Shown: positions 5,401-52,222 of the stretch, in pieces
Layout: every line of letters begins with the position of its first letter
Position numbering within the stretch: the stretch's first letter is position 1
DNA from: Onchocerca volvulus
Lineage: Eukaryota; Nematoda; Chromadorea; Rhabditida; Onchocercidae
NCBI GenBank assembly: GCA_000499405.2
Contig: HG738137.1
Coordinates: 9,953,317-10,017,316 of the forward strand
Length of the DNA stretch: 64,000 nucleotides
Reading direction: 5' to 3'
The notes under the pieces: model-generated
Database searches by the model: none
What the model was told of the DNA's origin: nothing
The model's input: the letters and a program-made list of their open reading frames with translations, nothing else
Translations under genes and position numbers: made by a program

Positions 5401-8400
5401 ATGTTTGAAATTTTCAGAAAAGAGATAAATGATGCTTTGAAGAAACGGAAGGAGACATTTTATGCGTGGATGAGTTCTGTTAGTATCGAGCAATTTCTTG
5501 CAGCTTGTGAAACTTGGAATTTAGAAGAGGTGCATCAAGCTGTAGAATCTGGATTCCTTGTTGATACATTCGATGATGATCATGTTACCGGATTACAGAT
5601 GGCTGCTGCAACTGGAAATATTGGAATTGTTAGTTTTCATAGATAATGATTTGTGTCTTTTTCAAAAAATACTAGCAATTATTTCTAACGTTTAATCATT
5701 TTAAGCTGAATCTTCGTGAAATATTCGTATTGAAATTCACGTGAAGCACAGACTTTACTTTATTTTATTTTTTGTTCAAAAAACACGTTTAAGCCGTTTT
5801 ATCACTTCAGGTACAGTATTTACTGGACCGAGGTGCTGATATCGAGAAAACTAACCAGGTGGGGATGACAGCTCTTCATCATGCAGCAAAAAATGGTCAT
5901 GCTAATATTGTTCGAATACTTGTTCAACGTGGTGCAAACTATCAAAAACTGACGTACGTTATTCAGATTATTTGTTATGAAATTCATACCCTCAAATCTA
6001 TATAAATAAAAATGCAATTTTCCGTTGTTACTTCCGACGCAACTTTTCAAGCTCTTCACTGATTGTTTTGAAATTTTGACATAACATTGGATCCGAATAG
6101 GCATGTGTTTCTTTATAGATATACCTACTTTTTTTTAAATTCTGTCCGTAAGGGTAAATATATTTTACTTACACGTGAAAGTATTATTTTTTTTTTTCGA
6201 AGTAGATTTACGGCAACTTATTTATAACAATGATGAAAATGCTATCCAAAATGCTCTGATTAACAGATGAATAAAATGAAGCCAGTTAATCAAGAGGTGA
6301 TACGATGAAGATCAGGTAAGGAGGAGAAGTCTAGAGAGAATTTAAAAGGACAGGATTTGAAGTTGGACTTCAAGTTCAAGTTCGAGGTTCTTACATCGAT
6401 GCAGCAATAACAAGAGTTCGCAGTTAAGGCGACACAGCAGTAGCAGTGATCCGACAATTCAGATGAGCAGTATTCATAAGAGCGACGAAGGTAAGAATAA
6501 CCCAGTGATCAATTTGACTGATTATTCTCTGGTAATTGTTTATTACAAAAAATTCTTCCCCCATCAATCAATTAGACTTTCTCAACAGGATTCTTCTGTA
6601 TAATCTGTAACTGAAAATTGCAGAAATAGTAAGCTGGATTTCACCTAATATAAATGCTGTGCGATTAAAAACTTTATTTTTTGTTCGCATAGAATCTCTT
6701 CAAACAGAGCAAGACATAGAATACTTTTCTGATACCTGTTGCCGACTTAGCCGAGTTTCAATAGCAAGGAGCAATCTCAATCCAACCAAATTACAATTCC
6801 ACCAAATTTTTCCCCCAACAATTTCCACTTAGCCAGACTGACTCATAGCAACGAGGTATGTAAAAAGTATAAATAACATGCGTGTATTTGAATGAAACAT
6901 TGTGTCAAAATTTCAAAGCAGTCGGTAAAAAGAATAACGAGTAACACGGAACGCTCAAATTTTCACTTATAAGCATTTTTTTTTATTTTTTTAAATTTAT
7001 AATTAGCTGGATTCGGACCCAGCTAGTTATAAATAAAAATTGGTATTGGTGCATTTAAAAGACAAATGAAAATTAAACTAAAGGTATTTTATATCAATAC
7101 ATTTTCAATAAAAGACTGCAATTTCACTTATCAAATATATGTTTGATCGAATCAGAAGTGAATAAAATGTAGAACGTACTTTTTAAGAATTAAATATTTA
7201 ATTGTAAAGAATAAAATGCATTGTGATATATATTACAAAACGAATAGTTTATCTGTTATCATTCTTATTTTCTCCTATTAATTTAGATACCTTGGTGCAT
7301 CAGCCATGACCTTAGCAGCAGGAAGTGGACATACAGATCTTGTCAAGCTACTCCTCGATTTACGAGTTAATATCAATCCGTCACATACGGCACTTTGTCC
7401 GACACCTGTAATAGCTGCAGCTTTTCGAAAGCACACACATTTATGCGCACTATTGTCACAAAAGTTTGCGATTTTATGACTAAATCAATTTGTTAACATA
7501 GAATTGCAATAAGCATTTACGGTGCAAGTTGCTTGCTCAAGTGTAATTCTTAAACAATGAATGCAAAAAGGCAAATATTTTGCATATAATTGTTTCAACA
7601 CAATTATTTTAGAGGAGCTTATTTGGATGGAAATATTCAACGACTTTCAAATCTTTCTGCTTTATCAACAGCAATATCATGCGGTGCAACAACAGTTGTT
7701 GGCGCATTACTCGAACTTGGCGCCAATCCATCATTTCGATCTTTAAATGGCATGACTTCAATAGAACTTGCACAACATCTGCAACGAAATGAAGTATTAA
7801 CTGTGATTAATTCAGCTATTCGAAGTACATTAAAAGGCAAGTTTTCACTTTTTCCAAGTTCTACTATTATTCAATTAAAATGAACTTAGCAATCAGCAAA
7901 ATGAGCTTAGCAATTATCTAACAATTTCAGAAATTTATAACAGAAAGATCTGAAAGGCGCAAAAAAATCAATACTAGATTTTAATTTTTATTAGTAATTA
8001 ATTAATAATTATGAGCCAAAATTTTTCTATTTTTGCAATGAATTTTTTAAGAAGAGGAATCGTTCGAAGTAGATTTACGGCAACTAATTTATAACAATGA
8101 TGAAAATGCTATCCGAATGATACTTAATCGACATTTGCCGTATGTTCCATTTCCGGAAAATACTACACCGTTAATGTATGCTGTCCTGTTAGCTGATATC
8201 AATATTGTAAGCGAATATTTTTGCTTATTATGATTGATCACCTTCCTTCATTCTAACTTTTTTTAATAGAAACATGAAGTGATATTAGTTTGAACAAAAT
8301 TAATTACTTTCAAACAGGTAAAAATAATTCAAGAAGCAAATGTTGCTGACATTAATACTGCCGAAAATGTTTCTGGACTTACGGCTCTCATGTTTGCTGC

Positions 8401-11400: not shown

Positions 11401-14400
11401 AAAACTTCGGAATTCTACGGGTTCCAGTTCGACAGTTCAAAGCGACACAACAGTAGCAATAATCGGACAATTCACTTGAATAGTATTCTTCTCTCTTATC
11501 GACAAAGGAAAGAATAACCCAATGATTAACTTGCCTAGACGTTCTCTGATAATTATTTGTTACGAAGAAACACTCTTCATCAATCAATAAAGCATTTCTC
11601 AACAGCATTCATCTCTGTCACAAAAAACACAAAAAACCTCTTTACACTTATAGCTGACCCAGTCTAATTACAATAGCAAGAATCAGTCTCCAATCCAACC
11701 AAACCACAAATCAAATTACCAAGGATCAGTTTTTTCCCATGAGTAGAAACGCTTTCTCTTTTCTTTTTTCCACTTAACCAGACTACGCGTGTATAAAAAC
11801 ACGCGCGTATTCGAATGCAACGTTGTGTCAAATTTTCAAAGCAATAGGTTTCTGATATTTAAGATTTTGAATTAATATACATAAGACGCGTGTTTAAGAA
11901 TTTTCGGAGGTTTAAGATTTTGAACAAACGAACATTGATGTTTTTATTTATATAGATTAGCTGCAGCTGGCACGCGAAGCATGGCCGACCCACAGCTAGC
12001 TGGATCGGTCACGTGGAGCGAGGCCGGATCCAGCTAGTAATAAATAATAATACTAATATTATTTTCACAGTAACAATAAATAATAATAAATGAGGATAAA
12101 TAAGAATAAATAACAATAAATAATAGTAAATAATAATAGATAATAATGACTAAGAATAAATAATAGCAATAACAAGAAATAATAATAAATAATAAAAATT
12201 GGTCAAGAAAAGTAAACAATGATAAATAATAGTGAATAATGATAAATTATAATGAATAATAATGAACAATGATAAATAATAATAATATTTTCACCTGTAA
12301 GTAATAACAATAAATAATAATGAATAATGATGAATAATAATAAACAATAATGAATAATAATAAATAATGATGAATGATAATAGATAATAATGAATAATAA
12401 CAAATAATACTGAATAATAATAAAAAATACCGATTGATAACAAATAATAACGAATAATAGTAAATAATAATGAATAATGATAAATAATAACAAATAATAA
12501 CAAATAGCAATGAATAGTGATAAATAATGATAAATAATAAATAATGATAAGTAATACTAAATAATAATAAATAATAATGAATGATAATAAATAATAATGA
12601 ATAATAATTAATAATAACGAATAAAAATAAACAATAATAAATTGTAAAAAATAATAATGAAAAAGTAATAAGTAATAATGAATAATAATAAATAATAAGA
12701 AGTAATAATAAATAATGAACAATTATAATGCTTTCACGTGTAAGCAATAGTAAATAATAATAAATAAGAATAAATAATAGTAAACAATAGTGAGCAATAA
12801 TAAATAATGATAAATAATACTGAATAATAACTAATAATAATAAATTATAAGTGAAAATGAGCAATAATAAATAATAATAAGTAGTTATAACTAAAATAAT
12901 AAATAATAAATAATAATGAATAACGATAATAATAATATTTCCACGTGTAAATAAAGATAAATAATAAATAATAGTAAATAATTAATAATAGAAAATAATA
13001 ATGAATAATGATAAATAAAAATGAATAAGAATAAATGATTAGAACAGAATACGCTGATTAGCCAAAATCTGAGTTTTGCATCCGATATGTTACCATTATA
13101 AAAGTGATGTAAACCGATTTCAAGTTGGTGTTTAATAAATTTTTTGACTTTTCAAGGCTTAAAAACATGCGGATATTCGAATGCAACCTTTTTTCAAAAT
13201 TGTGTTAAGGACTTTCCGATATCTAAGATTTTGTGTAAATATAGGTAAGGTGCGTGTTTAAAACTTTCGGAGGTTTAAGATTTTGAACCAACGAACATTA
13301 ACATTTTTATTTATATAGATTAGCTGGACCCGGCCAAGCTCCGCATGGCCAGCTAGTTAATAATATATTCACAGTGCTTTTTATCATATCATATGTAATA
13401 TGCAGAAATTTTGCATTTTTTTGAGGAAATATAAATGCCGATTTGCTTTGTTCGCTACAACAGCAACTTGGACATCGTACTACTTTGCTAGCACAGAGAA
13501 CCGATACCCATCAGCACCAACATTTAAGCCGTGTTATTCATAGCAGTAAGACGAAAATTGTATGTTAATTGTATGTTTGTTTTTTCAAATTTTGCATAAT
13601 TAACGAGAAAAAAAAAACTAGCCATAATTTAATCGAAATGGTTTAACAGTTAATGTGAATTTAATATGAATCTTGATTATGCTTAATCGTATCCAACTGA
13701 AAATAAATCATATATCTGGTAATTTTGATGAAATAATTTGGGGAAACTTGGTAAATTTGAAGTTGCATCAATAAAAATGTAAAAAAATATACATTTTCCT
13801 GAAATGCTTCGTTATATGTGTGCTTTTAGATATATTTACACTTGTATCCGTTATGTATGCTACGTATTGAATTGTCATACTATTATAGTTTGATAAAAAG
13901 AATTATATTTGATAATTTGAAAAAAAATTAAAGAATCTAATTTCGATATTTTTAGCTGAACAAGATATCCAGTCATGTCAGTCGTGGTAGCAATACAGGA
14001 AATATCTTGGACAACAAGGATAAGCCAAACTTTAGTAGAGCTCATTTGGCTAAGCTCGTACAAATTCATCAACATGATGATGACGAATTCATTTTGGCTA
14101 ATGATATTTTAAAATCGGTTGGAAATGAAAAAGTTGGAAGAGGCGATGATTTACATCGTTACATTGAAGCTGCCAGATATGTTGCCGAAGTATGAATTCA
14201 TTCAACCAAATATATAAGTCGATTAATTTAAGTAATTGAGTAAATTTCATTCATTTATGCTTTTATTTACTTCATGTATGCTATTATTTTATCTTTAAAT
14301 AAATATGTAATTTCAATTCGTCTTGAGCAAAACATGCATCCCCCGTTAAAGAAGTTTCAAGCTATTATTTGTCAAGATAAGAGTTTTGAAATACTTGGAA

Positions 14401-41136: not shown

Positions 41137-43397
41137 TACCTGAGCCAAAAGTTTAGCTGCCTGTGCATCACCTTCTGCAGTTGTTATAGCTGCAACTTTC
41201 ATTTGTTCTGCTGTTTCGACAAGATAACGAGCTTTTTCAGCTTCTTGCTGTGCCACTTGTTTCATCTCTACAGCATCTGTAAATTCACGTCCGAAAGACA
41301 GATGTGTCTGAAAATTTTTCGCAAATTTTAAAAGTTAGGAAACTGAATATAAACTGAAATGCAATTTCAAAAAACAAAAAACTATATAAATTCCAATTCT
41401 TGTGCTATTTGCAAAACTATCCGATCATCTATTTTAATGTGACAATCGATAGTAATGACAGATTTCTTTGTGCTATTGCTGCTGTATCCAAAATAAAAGA
41501 ATGAGCTAACACTGCAAAATTTTTCTTGTCCGAGTATCTTTATGTATCGGGCGAAGAATCATTAAGAGAATAAACCTAAGAGAAAAGTTTTTTAAGATAT
41601 AGGAATCTAAAATTAAGCTTTGATCTATAGTACTTTTAGCTGATGTAGTAACAACAGTAAAAAAATAAAAACACAAAATTTCTAATTATACAAGTTCGCA
41701 TTTGAAGTCATGAATTGACCATTCTTAAGAAAAAGTATTTGATATTTCCTATATTGTTATATAATAGTTCATTATATAGATAAGAATGGACAAATAGCGG
41801 CATCCTTTGATATCGCTTAATCATTGTCTTTCCATACCATGGTTAAATGTTCTAACTGAATTTCACAGTGAATTAAAAAGCTTCATCAGACTTACAATAG
41901 CAATGTCATCTAATAAAATGCCGAACTGCTTGGCTCTTTCCGATAATTCAACAGAAACTCTATGACTGACACTTTCTCGCTGTGTGATCATTTCATGTGC
42001 ATCGAATTGCGCCTGAAATTAAACGCGACTATTCCGACAATAGAACAATTTCTGGAAATAAATTTCTTCGGAAGAGGTAAAGAAAAGTAATATTTCTGCT
42101 AAATAATATGATAATAATAAGAAAAGATTATGGTAAAGATTCTAATATTCTAAATAATCCTAATTTAATAATAACAACACACAAAAACAAACCCATAATG
42201 AATGATTTAACAAAAAATCTGTTTGAAGGGAACATCTTAGCTCCTGTAGGAAATTCACGATCACCATGTATGTCTTATCAAGAAGAACAAGCTAGATGCA
42301 ATACCTTTAGATGCAATATGGAAAAAATAGGGTTAAATGCTTTAAAAATGTGATTACTCACAACGACAGCTTTCAAAACTTCATTTGTAATTGAAGGCAA
42401 CACTCTCTCTGCATAGTCTCGTCCAATGTTCAAATATATATTCGGTAACTTATTCGGTTCGGGTCGATGCAAAACTCTCAGTGTTATTTGCACATTTTGT
42501 AGGTCTAAAATAAAATTAATAAAAAAAGAAAAAAATACCATTTCATTGAAGTTATATTTCTTTAAAAAAAATTTTATATACTATTAGAGACTTCTATATA
42601 ACAATGAGAATTTATTCATTCCTTCTGACTGTTTTTTTTATTCTTTTCAAAATCGAAGGAAAACAGAAAAAAAGAAAACATCTTACCTTTACTTCCTGTA
42701 ATCGTGGAGATAACTCTTGGGGTTGACCGAATATCAAAAATAATTGGATTTTGGATTCCTGGAATCAACACATGTGTTCCCTCGCCGATAACATCTGGCT
42801 TTACCCCAGTGAAACGATCGAAAATTACAGCTCGTTGCCCACCATCAACTGTAATAACAGAAGCTTCAATGATTTCCTTTTTTTAAATTCCCAAAATATT
42901 TCCGTTTATTTTTGAAAAATATGTATAATATCATTTCCATGATCTTCAATATAAAGTAATTCTATGACTTTTAAAACTTTATCCGTTTAATATTCCAAAA
43001 ATTTATTTCAAAGTATTAATTATAAGCAGAAAAAAAAAACTTGAATAAATGAATCTTTTAAATTATGCTTCAAGAAACTGCTGAACTTACAAATTACGCA
43101 ATGAATTTATATGTTTCTAATACTCATACCTAAACAAAGTATGTTATTCAATAAACTTGATATTCGATTATTTAATTAGCTACCTACCTACAAGATTATT
43201 TCATAGCACTCAATATTCGACTATTTATTGTCCCAATAAAAGAGCTAGAACTCAATACTACATTATTTAGCTATTTAATGAAAAAGCCATGAAAACAAAC
43301 CGTTATACAATGCTTTCGATATCACGCCCGCACCAATGGCCATCGTAGCTCCAAGTTGGACCAAACGTTTCATTAATTTCTCTCCCACTGCTGCCAT
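40763..43397 (-). CDS. phb-1: Prohibitin 1 (mitochondrial inner membrane SPFH protein)
   Basis: Coding-order exons: 43397-43301, 42848-42687, 42504-42362, 42012-41896, 41307-41140, 40909-40763; 834 nt, 277 residues, close to the family norm. Prohibitin 1 forms ring complexes with prohibitin 2 in the mitochondrial inner membrane and supports cristae and respiratory chain stability. An N-terminal hydrophobic segment (about residues 14-29) precedes the SPFH domain with [25 protein letters not shown] and [15 protein letters not shown]. The coiled-coil region has [16 protein letters not shown] and [13 protein letters not shown]. Every intron is GT-AG with matching phase. Intron 5 begins GTAAGATATAT and runs straight into a TA microsatellite. 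An acceptor (ATTATAG) 16 nt before the ATG suggests trans-splicing or a 5' UTR intron. Confidence 0.97.
41107..41135. repeat. (TA)n microsatellite beside a splice donor
   Basis: About 14 TA units in intron 5 of phb-1, separated from the exon end at 41140 only by the donor GTAAG. Confidence 0.9.
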
Positions 43398-47727: not shown

Positions 47728-50700
47728 TTAAATTGATTCAGTCCTCGTTCGAAGTGGTTGGACAGCACGCTTTGATTGTTGCTTTGGTATAACTGTTAAT
47801 GGCACAATCTGACTAATGCGAGCAGGTTTTGATCTCGAATGTAAATCGCCTGAAAGCTAGTAAAACGTTGATTTATGTTATGAATTTGAAATATATTGAT
47901 AGAAATTCAAGACGGAAGATTGTCGAATAAATTTTCATCGAGTAAATTCCGGAAAATAAGTTCGAGAGATGATTTATTAATTTGAAAAATTGAAGCTTTA
48001 TGCCAAAAAATTTGTATCCTGCTCTTTTTGATGTGAATACCATTCGTATCCAGTGTTCCATCCATTTGTCCACTTGTCTTTTTCGATTCCTTCAAATCTT
48101 CGAATAATCTTTTTACTTCAAATATTTGCGGATATTTCATTTTTCCCGTATCAGTCGATGCAGGTGAAAAATCACTTGCTGGATCAATCATATTCCGTAA
48201 ATACTGTAATATGTTTAGATTACACTTTCTATGCAAGATATCAGTCAATGAAATTAAAATATGAAATTGATACATTCAACTTTTCAGGCTTCTTTCATCT
48301 CCAAGTTCGTTTTTCCACTTTTTTTTTTTTTTTTTTTTTTTTTTGCAGTATACGAAGCACATTAGAAATTTCGTTGACCGAAAAAAACTTTTGTTTCATA
48401 TGTTCGAGAATTCACCCTTCTCTGTTTTCTTGGTTCATTCCTGATTTCCAAGTTGTTTATTTGATTGACATTTGATTTTGTAGAAGGCATAACCGTTGAA
48501 TGATTGGTGAATTCATTTTCATTCATTTGTTGTTCAGTCAGTTCTACTACTTCTGCTGTACCTGCTTCACTTGTTTTATCCTCGGAAGTTGAACTGGAAA
48601 ATACTTTAATATGATGATAACAACCAGCTTTTCCATTTGGCAGATCTTCAGAAAAAAAAATAAAAAGAAGAAAGGAAATTCCAATCTTTAATTTCATTAT
48701 AAACGAAAAAAAAAAAAAACTGGAAATTAGCTGAAGAAGCATTTCATAAATTTGCTTCTTTTAGCAAATCCCTCAATAAACAGATATACCTGCTAACTGT
48801 AGCAGCAAGATGATGTTTTCGTCTCATTCGTTCCTCATTTTGACGACGTTTAAATTTTTGCAATGCTTCGTCCACTCTTTTCCCTAACACTTCATAATTG
48901 TTGTAAATTTGCTCTAATAACCATTCGAAGCCATCTTTAAGAGTGGAATCTATCATTTTTCCACTACCCGCATTTGACTGACAAATTTCCTTAACAATAT
49001 TTGAATTGCCTTATGTCAACAAAAGTTTCAATCACAAGATAATTATTGGAACATTTCTTCATTGAGATCTTATTGAGGCAATTTGTTTGCTCTCATTTGT
49101 GAAGCCAAAGCTTTAATTTGTTCAAATATTGCCTTTTTATTAGACTTATAATGCCTTACATTCATTGATAATTCATTGAAGCAATAACGCTTTAAATCAT
49201 ATTTTTGGATTTGTTCTTGATGACAAGTAGTATTGCCTTTTTGTTAGCCTATAATAGCTTACAGTAATTGAAAACTTATCGAAATTATATCCTCTTATTC
49301 TATCACACTGTTCAACGGTAAATTCAAGAGCAAGTAATCTGAATGTTAGTTTACAGTATTGCAAATAAAATTAACTTACTATTCGAATTTGCGTCTGATA
49401 TTGATTTGCTAATCTATGTAGATCAAAACGATCGGTAAGCTGAATTTCATCGATACATCTTTCTTGATCTTTTTTATTCAGAATTACGAGAAATGGCTTA
49501 TTATGCAAATCTTCATCACTAAGAACATTCTTCAATAATTGACCGCTTTCTTCGATACGATCTCGTTCGCTTCCATCAATAACATAGATTACAGCAAATA
49601 CCTAATTTTTTAAATCTTATATATCAATGTATATAAATAAAGTTCAAATTTTATTTAATTCAATTTCTCTCACATAATTTTCATTCTTGAAAGCAACTTG
49701 ATAATTGCAAACTTTTTTCTGACAAAAAAAAAAAGAAAAAAAAAATCGAACGATAACAAAAAAACTTCTCCCTGCATAACCATAAGTCCTGCTTGAAAAA
49801 CACTTAGTAAAAAAATTGTTATCGTTGTTTTCTGCCATAAAAGTACCTACCCGAACTTTAGATTGTAGAATTCAAATTTTTGCTTCACTCTATTATATAG
49901 TAATCAAATTAATATAAATGAAAGATAGTATAATAATCATCACAGGAATTACGGCTTCAGGTAAATCAGAATTATGCAATAATCGAATGAAAAAATATTT
50001 GAATATTAGCATAATAAATTGCGATTCAGAGAAGGTATACAAGGAAATTCCCATAATTACTGCTCAGCCGTCGAAGCAAGAAAAACCTTATAAATTGTAT
50101 GGATATGTTTTGGCAAGAGAAAATTATTCCGTGGATCTATGGCTAGAAGATGAAAATCAATAATGTATTGGAAAATTCACAAGTACCCCATCATCACTTG
50201 AGGAAATGAGTTTTATATTAGCAGTATGATCAAAGACTTGTCATCAATTCCACTAATAAGTCAGAAAGTGAAGAAAAATTTTTCGGTGAGTTCAGAAAAA
50301 ATATAAGTAAAGAGGAGTACTATAAATTAGTGTTGAAAAGGGTGCTTACGTTTAAGGTCAGATAGAACAATAGTTGGCGAGCTACGTGGGCTAGAAACTT
50401 TTAGTTTCCTTAAAGCGATAAACACTGGTCACTCAGGGTCAATATCAACCATTCATGTGGATAGTCCAGCAATGCCCTTGAGCAAATAAAATTGACGGTT
50501 ATGCAAGCAAACTTCGGCATGTCTTCAGGTCAAACGATGCCATACATTAATTAAGAATGTAATGAATATTATCATTCAACTTCAAAGAATGAACGAGGGA
50601 AAAAGAAATATTTCCGAAATATTATATCCTAGATTTTTAAATAAAAATTTATAAATTTGTATAAATAAAAGAAAGTAATTTATGAGTCATAGTGGAAACC

Positions 50701-52222
50701 ATCTACGGAACATTTTGATAGGAGATGTTGTAGTTTCCAGTATACTGGAGTTTTGCTTCTATTTATCTGAAATATTGTTCCATCTGTTTGTTGATGGTCC
50801 AGATGGTGTAGATTTTAAAGCGGTTGACCCTAGTTTAACTCCTTTCCCTCAGGCTCTCTGGCCAACAATTTTCGATCATTTACAACATTGTTGGCATCAT
50901 CCAGAGTTATATGGCTCTGAACTTGCAATTAAATTAATTACATCTTCTGTACTGCCTATCATTGTTTCAATAATTGTTTTGTGGAATTTAAGAGAGAGAA
51001 TAATTAAATGGTGTCCATTTAAAAAGACAGAATCGCTCCACGGAGATTCAAAATGGACATCAGAAAAAGACATACGAAAGGAAAGGTTAAGAAAGCAAAA
51101 AAAAAAAAAAAAAAAAAGAAAAAAAAACAAAAAATATTGCTTGATGAGGATAAAAAAGGCTATTTTATTGCTGACGGATATCAACACACATCTTTGTTTA
51201 CACCTTTGGGTTCTGGTAAAGGTGTCAGTTTTGTAATTTATAATTTATTATTCTGGTCTGATGCGATAATTGTACACGACATAAAATTAGAGAACTATGA
51301 AATAACAAGTGGTTGGTGAGAACGACAAGGACAAAAAGTACATTTGTATGAAATCCAACACTAGCCAGAATATTTTAATTAACCTTTTGAAAATTATACC
51401 TCAGGATAATAATTTTTCCATATAGAGCGTATCCGATCACCACCACCCAAATCATATGCAATAATTTCAGCTTTTCTATATCTAAATTCTTTTAGCGTAA
51501 AACCATTCGTAGGTAAAACATCATTTAATTCACCTGTAAGTTGATAATTTCACAGCATTTATTGAACCATTATAATACTTAGTATTTAAGTAGCGAAATA
51601 CAATTTATAAACTTTCTAGCATTATAATCGTATCAGTGATTACTAATTTATCATACATTTGTTGTAATGTTTAAATTCAAAAATTATTTCAAAAAATAGG
51701 TAAATGCAGCAGTTGCATGCAGTAGCTGAGTAGTAGTAAATTATAAAAATTACTTATCATTCAAAAATCATTTGTGAAATTTGTTTTCTTCAAAGCATTA
51801 AACTGAATGATGTAACTGTAAGATTTTAATACTTTTTTGTTTGTAGATTAATCGACATTTTTTTCTAAAAAATGATTACCTTACCTGAAGCTAATGCGCA
51901 TATAGCAGTTGATTTTCCTGCACCATCTAAGCCCAAAATGCAAATTCGTATTTTCCTGAATTTATCAAGTTTAATAATTAAAAATTTAAAGTGATAACAA
52001 TGTTGGGTTACTCAAACATTCATTTAAAAAAAAATTTCAGCTTTCCTTTTTTCAAAAAAAAAAAAAAAAAAAAAAGGAAAAAAAGCTTACAAAAATATTT
52101 TTTCAAAAAAAAAAAAAAAAAGATAGGAAAAAGAAAAGCTTATGGAAATACATTTACCTAACTTTTTTGTGATGTTGCAACTTTTTTGTATGCTTCTTAA
52201 ATCCACCAACGCAATTGCCCAT
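47728..52222 (-). CDS. arl-13: ARL13-type ciliary small GTPase
   Basis: Coding-order exons: 52222-52158, 51955-51885, 51533-51400, 49601-49380, 48989-48790, 48593-48389, 48203-48041, 47849-47728; 1182 nt, 393 residues. ARL13 is a membrane-bound GTPase of the ciliary shaft that acts as exchange factor for ARL3. P-loop GLDGAGKST is at residues 30-38, the ARL13-style DLGGG replaces the usual DxxGQ at 73-77, and NKKD is at 132-135. KNYYPE follows the switch region, and a charged, probably coiled-coil helix (KFKRRQNEERMRRKHH) leads to a Ser/Thr-rich tail. The protein begins MGNC, which suits myristoylation of Gly2 and palmitoylation of Cys4. Exons 6-8 are supported by phase and open frame but are less conserved. 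Intron 3 (49602-51399) holds the Wolbachia-like insert on the other strand. Confidence 0.9.
49918..50342 (+). pseudogene. miaA: Fragment of Wolbachia-type miaA (tRNA dimethylallyltransferase)
   Basis: An open stretch of 81 residues from ATG 49918 has the MiaA N-terminal phosphate-binding loop GITASGKSE, then INCDSEKVYKEIPIITAQP and YKLYGYV, before a stop at 50161. Other frames resume with FYISSMIKDLSSIPLIS (about 50210-50260) and KEEYYKLVLKR (about 50310-50340), both fitting the middle of MiaA. MiaA adds the isopentenyl group to A37 of tRNAs. Wording and residue choice look alphaproteobacterial, Wolbachia in particular, though I cannot run the search. Stops and frameshifts make it non-functional. 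It lies antisense inside intron 3 of arl-13. Confidence 0.8.
50343..50654 (+). pseudogene. virB11: Fragment of Wolbachia-type virB11 (type IV secretion ATPase), C-terminal part
   Basis: The frame from 50343 opens with CLRLRSDRTIVGELRG, the Asp-box/Walker B region of VirB11-family ATPases, then AINTGHSGSISTIH with the conserved His box. A frameshift near 50475 continues with LEQIKLTVMQANFGM, and a third frame with NIIIQLQRMNEGKRNISEI ends at TAA 50652-50654. The N-terminal domain and Walker A are missing. VirB11 powers type IV secretion at the inner membrane in bacteria. It joins the miaA fragment without a gap and precedes virD4 by 27 nt, the gene order of the Wolbachia vir operon. Confidence 0.85.
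50682..51375 (+). pseudogene. virD4: Fragment of Wolbachia-type virD4 (type IV coupling protein), N-terminal part
   Basis: From ATG 50682 an open frame encodes MSHSGNHLRNILIGDVVV, a hydrophobic segment, LWPTIFDHLQHCWHHPELYG, a second membrane segment and CPFKKTESLHGDSKWTSEKD. An expanded A run at about 51099-51130 shifts the frame. The next frame gives DEDKKGYFIADGYQH and the Walker A region TPLGSGKGVSF, up to a stop at 51317-51319, after which QGQKVHLYE can still be read. The match is to the front third of Wolbachia VirD4, the hexameric coupling ATPase of type IV secretion. The fragment stops about 25 nt before the splice donor of arl-13 exon 3. Confidence 0.9.
52037..52141. repeat. Duplicated poly(A) block in arl-13 intron 1
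   Basis: The pattern TTTTTTCA(n)...GGAAAAA...AAAGCTTA occurs twice in tandem (about 52053-52090 and 52100-52141), with A runs of about 18-22. Confidence 0.75.

Follow-up and report, generated by a model that had tools for sequence, protein, structure and literature searches.

A composite Wolbachia insert within an intron of the arl-13 gene of Onchocerca volvulus

Intron 3 of arl-13, a cilia-type gene of the filarial nematode Onchocerca volvulus, carries 1,610 bp of Wolbachia-type DNA composed of two fragments, which ~553 kb separate in the nearest Wolbachia genome. It was found in a stretch of 64,000 nucleotides, hereafter the window (C2:9953317–10017316, in an assembly of 94.7 Mb and 115 contigs). 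OVS2, a 22-mer probe reported to be specific to O. volvulus (PMC3378604), has two exact matches in this assembly, and its reversed control has none. When the window was compared by BLASTN with 800,000 of the 957,990 bases of the chromosome of wOo, the Wolbachia of Onchocerca ochengi, two abutting matches (both E = 0) covered window positions 49760–51369. The reversed window gave no match to wOo at E 1e-4. An initial annotation, made from the sequence of the window, had placed frameshifted Wolbachia-type DNA on the strand opposite to arl-13, between its exons 3 and 4, at 49918–51375. BLASTN (88.7% and 86.8% identity) and Pfam bear out the nature, strand and frameshifts of this DNA. The locus was right, but both ends required correction.

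What does the insert encode? Fragment A runs from the margin of a divergent open frame across intergenic DNA into the 5′ portion of miaA, whose ATG lies at 49918 and whose frame is broken by frameshifting indels. The 158 bp upstream of that start codon correspond in wOo to the first part of the divergent frame, 156 aa long. Fragment B, likewise broken by indels, contains the 3′ end of virB11 (to ~50655) and, from the ATG at 50682, the beginning of virD4. A poly-A expansion of ~30 bp lies inside the virD4 fragment near 51099–51135; such tracts are common in the nuclear genome. Pfam recognizes the virB11 piece (T2SSE, 4.6e-10) and the virD4 piece (T4SS-DNA_transf, 5.5e-18), while the miaA piece (IPPT, 1.2e-4) falls slightly below the curated cut-off; three further Wolbachia-side pieces of the window matched no Pfam family. 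The counterparts in wOo are intact: miaA at 328 aa (IPPT, 1.6e-60), virB11 at 330 aa (T2SSE, 6.8e-33) and virD4 at 679 aa (T4SS-DNA_transf, 5.7e-134), these searches having been run with parts of the frames.

The insert nests inside the diversity of Wolbachia. By identity wOo ranks first and wDi second, both members of supergroup C (PMC12693587). In a genome collection, 12 of the 57 stretches matching a virD4 pattern encode a relative. All 12 are Wolbachia or Rickettsiales records, and in every one the match runs from virB11 through virD4 (~50343–51369). In a maximum likelihood (ML) tree of both fragments the insert pairs with wOo, and the split between this pair and the five remaining Wolbachia has 100% support. 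At 86.8–88.7% identity to wOo, the insert is distinct from a live symbiont, and its genes are fragmented by indels and show neutral evolution (below). On this sequence evidence we identify the insert as a nuclear Wolbachia transfer (NUWT) whose nearest relative is wOo.

The initial annotation had treated the three gene pieces as neighbours. This holds for virB11 and virD4, which adjoin one another in wOo, but not for miaA. Fragment A derives from 99.9–100.5 kb of the wOo chromosome and fragment B from 653.0–654.0 kb. The miaA region lies at 154 kb in wDi and at 738 kb in the strain of Dipetalonema caudispina, while virB11–virD4 lies within 566–582 kb and 337–354 kb, respectively; the distance could be read from these three single-chromosome genomes. 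For nine of the 12 relative loci the genome was searched for the miaA part, and all nine contain it. Since miaA and virB11–virD4 are far apart in these three genomes, and since donor fragments from non-adjacent wOo sites abut directly in the window, the insert is composite, with two donor fragments. The transfer of a single miaA–virB11–virD4 stretch is rejected on the ~553 kb that separate the parts in wOo. Coordinates are collected in table 1.

Table 1. Features of the composite insert and of its host gene (window coordinates).
Feature	Position	Strand	Remarks
Composite NUWT	49760..51369	+	1,610 bp; BLASTN to wOo
Donor fragment A	49760..50337	+	wOo 99882-100460 (+), 88.7% BLASTN
Donor fragment B	50338..51369	+	wOo 654039-653043 (-), 86.8% BLASTN
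Join of fragments A/B	50337..50338	.	no filler; microhomology a few bases at most
arl-13 exon 1	52157..52222	-	start codon, MGNCVGGFK; tblastn of O. flexuosa P0001; donor end approximate
arl-13 exon 2	51885..51963	-	P-loop; upstream edge approximate
arl-13 exon 3	51400..51533	-	DLGGG switch region
arl-13 intron 3	49602..51399	-	1,798 bp, GT...AG ends
arl-13 exon 4	49380..49601	-	NKKD motif
arl-13 exon 5	48792..48989	-	tblastn of P0001, P0002, P0003, P0007

How does the host gene accommodate the insert? Without it, intron 3 would measure 188 bp, of which 30 nt lie between the 5′ splice site and the insert and 158 nt between the insert and the 3′ splice site. Exons 3 and 4 still join in phase, as initially annotated: the join is in phase 0 (...NYYPE/VFAVIYVIDGS...), and the junction residues E, V and F are invariant in all seven aligned relatives. 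Across this junction the predicted protein matches filarial and other nematode relatives. Of the ARL13B relatives in a protein database, that of O. flexuosa is the best (89% identity), and the 11 proteins include matches named ARL13B from Wuchereria, Dirofilaria, Anisakis and Toxocara. A sequence search of the PDB ranked ARF1 first and ARL13B lower. The host is thus an ARF-family GTPase matching nematode ARL13B and carrying the DLGGG motif, which we take to be typical of ARL13. Beyond exon 5, further coding matches were located by tblastn as far as ~47731. Exons of a single ARL13B gene lie on both sides of the insert, and their contig measures at least 27.8 Mb; the assembly thereby places the insert in the nuclear genome.

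Has the insert been maintained by selection? Over 1,564 aligned sites, at which wOo and wDi differ 159 times, 123 changes fall on the insert branch and 32 on the wOo branch, with one left unplaced. The insert-branch changes are spread evenly over the three codon positions (40 : 34 : 36), whereas those on the wOo branch are biased to the third (6 : 2 : 18; Fisher, positions 1+2 versus 3, p 0.0014). This contrast indicates that the insert has decayed neutrally since it entered the nucleus; the decay noted initially from frameshifts is evident in the indels and in this flat spectrum alike. The two fragments have fared similarly. Insert-derived changes occupy 41 of 570 sites in one and 82 of 994 in the other (Fisher p 0.50), and wOo-derived changes 13 of 570 and 19 of 994 (Fisher p 0.71). 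By these counts they are equal in divergence and in age.

When might the insertion have occurred? The ML branches measure 0.113 for the insert and 0.014 for wOo. Since its split from the insert, the wOo branch amounts to 40% of half the wOo–wDi distance by change count, and by ML to ~23% of the path back to where wDi diverges (0.0138 versus 0.0138 + 0.0455). The Wolbachia of O. volvulus (wOv) and wOo are reported to be 99.51% identical (PMC5310847), i.e. ~0.25% per lineage, compared with 1.4–2.0% on the wOo branch since the insert's donor. If rates were alike, the donor split would be ~6–8 times older than the wOv/wOo split. From the branch lengths we infer that the insertion preceded the separation of O. 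volvulus and O. ochengi but followed that of Dirofilaria. O. flexuosa gives a further hint. Its P0001 protein is recorded from a contig of 2,924 bp, while residues 1–292 span 52222–48410 (3,813 bp) in the window, so that O. flexuosa would be at least 889 bp shorter here. The insert is probably absent from that species, although shorter introns could also explain the 889 bp. Its presence or absence in the arl-13 gene of other Onchocerca would date one transfer from Wolbachia to the nucleus.

We propose that two fragments of Wolbachia DNA, ligated end to end, were captured in intron 3 of arl-13, and that the insert is spliced out and drifts neutrally; we put the probability of this account at about 0.9. 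A supergroup C symbiont would have released two pieces of its chromosome in the germline, presumably, of an Onchocerca ancestor. Fragments A and B would have been ligated end to end and captured by end joining, perhaps during repair of a break in the then short intron 3. In this account the insert has no selected function. It has left the GT...AG ends and the exon phase untouched, would be lost from the transcript through splicing, and has accumulated evenly spread substitutions, indels and the poly-A expansion. The initial annotation had likewise seen an old transfer, tolerated because it is spliced out. The best matches (wOo, then wDi), the neutral spectrum and the in-frame exons agree with that view; the splicing is presumed. 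For arl-13 itself the insert is apparently harmless. The two-fragment build suggests that endosymbiont DNA enters the germline nucleus as several pieces, which come together either before they integrate or as they do so.

Several observations weigh against this account. Ten joins between wOo pieces (gap ≤6 nt, wider ones excluded) showed no excess of overlap over simulated blunt joins, 577 in number (mean, p 0.66; count of overlaps ≥2, p 0.14), and the joining pathway is for that reason not demonstrated. The result speaks neither for nor against end joining, because blunt joining leaves no excess of overlap and old joins erode. No target-site duplication was apparent by eye at the insert. Four composite events were detected among the wOo blocks used as queries, and three of them, that of the window included, pair the same two blocks, a repetition that one-off random joining does not predict. 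In addition, limited rearrangements are reported in wOo (PMC4703054), leaving the gene order of the donor uncertain.

Might a single, simple transfer have come from a rearranged Wolbachia in which both parts were contiguous? The window, C2:23622173–23622827 and a pair of loci at 14.09 and 14.11 Mb on C3 each join wOo 99.9–105.1 kb with 653.0–654.5 kb, much as a rearranged donor would predict, and the rearrangements reported in wOo (PMC4703054) lend this some plausibility. However, breakpoints and orientations differ among the three joins, the regions are distant in all three single-chromosome genomes, and the genomes of supergroup C are described as unusually syntenic (PMC4703054). One member of the C3 pair, moreover, has pieces at 96–99% identity. 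We consider a rearranged donor improbable; a preference for pairing the 100-kb and 654-kb regions is suggestive only. A slimmer chance attaches to two successive insertions that came to abut within one intron. Wolbachia-like matches are frequent in the genome, but the two parts are equally diverged and not a single nematode base separates them.

An assembly chimera, in which live-endosymbiont contigs were wrongly built into the nematode chromosome, is very unlikely. O. volvulus, O. ochengi and O. lupi do harbour live supergroup C Wolbachia (PMC12693587). Yet the insert differs from wOo by 11–13% while live wOv differs from it by only 0.49% (PMC5310847), and this divergence led us to reject a live-symbiont join. 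The flat codon spectrum and the intact intron ends and exon phase point the same way, as does a genome search with wOo regions, every candidate of which was scored: no contig held a long, near-identical copy. (In the search with the window stretch as query, 40 of 111 candidates were scored.) Equally unlikely is retention for a function, for example in an antisense or regulatory role at arl-13. Presumed persistence since before the O. volvulus/O. ochengi split and proximity to the 5′ splice site might be cited in its favour, against the alike codon positions, broken frames and poly-A expansion, evidence that concerns coding only; a selected coding function is rejected on the flat codon-position spectrum.

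Is such a composite exceptional within the genome? Five wOo queries (~39.6 kb) gave 134 matches at E 1e-3. Once merged, these came to 130, spread over 116 nuclear loci, with identities of 68–100% (median 85.5%). All first-look candidates were scored; the matches were not confirmed singly, and weak ones may be nematode genes. Four collinear pieces of 70–78% identity at C4:1.339–1.341 Mb are exon-like and a possible example of a related nematode gene. Of 33 nuclear loci taken with their flanks (L002–L004, L033–L062), eight were set aside because they represented the window itself, a place already included or an inverted duplicate. Eight of the 25 other distinct NUWT loci join wOo pieces >20 kb apart within 500 nt, a lower bound, with 16% of wOo outside the comparison. 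From the background in the rest of the window (three wOo pieces in 62.4 kb), we estimate that ~1 in 25 loci would be composite through proximity. Three loci retrieved through poly-A (L005, L006, L008) had no wOo match.

Four virB11 copies raise the possibility of a recurrent breakpoint. A 1,001-bp wOo query found six nuclear matches, four of which (window, L045, L050, L061) cover the virB11 part. All four begin at wOo 654039–654054, within 16 bp and directly downstream of a GGGCAGGGCAGGGC run. In 20,000 length-preserving shuffles, four same-side ends fell within 16 bp in 0.36% of runs (Monte Carlo p 0.0036, for a cluster spotted post hoc and uncorrected for other noticeable patterns). Are these copies of one another? 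Pairwise BLAST of their flanks matched nothing beyond virB11 itself. The copies share no nuclear-only substitution, except one at the alignment end, and the bases common to at least two copies yet not found in wOo occur in some Wolbachia. At two columns L050 and L061 keep the base of all 11 other aligned Wolbachia, while wOo, the window and L045 share another. This suggests transfers of two ages, L050 and L061 apparently being the first to leave the Wolbachia lineage, though other columns conflict with these two. It is possible, but in our judgement doubtful, that many Onchocerca NUWTs are patchworks religated during integration, from a Wolbachia chromosome with recurrent break sites.

How does the insert compare with known cases? 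Transfers from Wolbachia to filariae, invoked in the initial annotation, are well documented. For O. volvulus, Cotton et al. give a total of 531 nuwts, seven of them >1 kb (PMC5310847), and Vancaester et al. 653 regions, with a mean of 434 bp for NUWTs of supergroup C origin in Onchocerca (PMC12693587). Because Onchocerca has many inserts of this type and they have been catalogued, the locus is less surprising than on first reading. Like these hundreds per genome, it is fragmented, non-functional supergroup C DNA (PMC5310847, PMC12693587); unlike the usual NUWT it is 1,610 bp long, composite and situated in the intron of a coding gene. O. flexuosa and A. viteae have short Wolbachia-like fragments, with poly(A) tracts near some (PMC2882956). 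In another filarial case non-contiguous Wolbachia pieces likewise lie side by side in the nucleus, but there they adjoin named flanking genes, whereas the present insert is intronic and filler-free, with a wOo-like donor. Complex organelle insertions, mosaic mitochondrial and plastid insertions (numts and nupts) with several donor fragments each, are an established class (PMC6215612). Their donor is an organelle and hallmarks of end joining are reported for them (PMC6215612), while here the donor is an endosymbiont and no such signature is demonstrable. The words intron, exon, junction, chimeric, expressed and virB are absent from the main text of PMC12693587. Among the literature matches listed there was no paper on this arl-13 locus, which the supplementary tables of PMC5310847 and PMC12693587 may nevertheless list. 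The insert is ordinary in kind for Onchocerca; its novelty is modest and lies in the mosaic build and the possible recurrent virB11 breakpoint. The composite build merits a genome-wide look, and assays for virB11, virD4 or miaA may detect nuclear copies in O. volvulus.

The window has further Wolbachia-like segments at 6599–6710 (87.5% to wOo 268 kb), 13038–13157 (90.1% to wOo 76 kb) and 41536–41689 (80.8% to wOo 253 kb), so that it appears to hold four NUWT sites. Elsewhere, composites take several forms. L045 (C2:23622173–23622827 onward) joins pieces from wOo 654 kb, 101 kb and 57 kb, with breakpoints unlike those of the window. L055 and L056 (C3:14113477 and C3:14092884) are a three-piece composite in an inverted pair ~20 kb apart, L055 being 96–99% identical to wOo. 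At L062, the same place as L007 (C2:12259176 area), six wOo pieces of 33–183 bp are packed into ~670 bp (locus positions 1323–1994); they derive from wOo 60.7, 653.6, 29.5, 519.4, 225.3 and 796.3 kb. Finally, two pieces, C3:18529474–18529754 (281 bp) and C2:21003958–21004070 (113 bp), are 100% (rounded) identical to wOo, suggesting very recent transfers.

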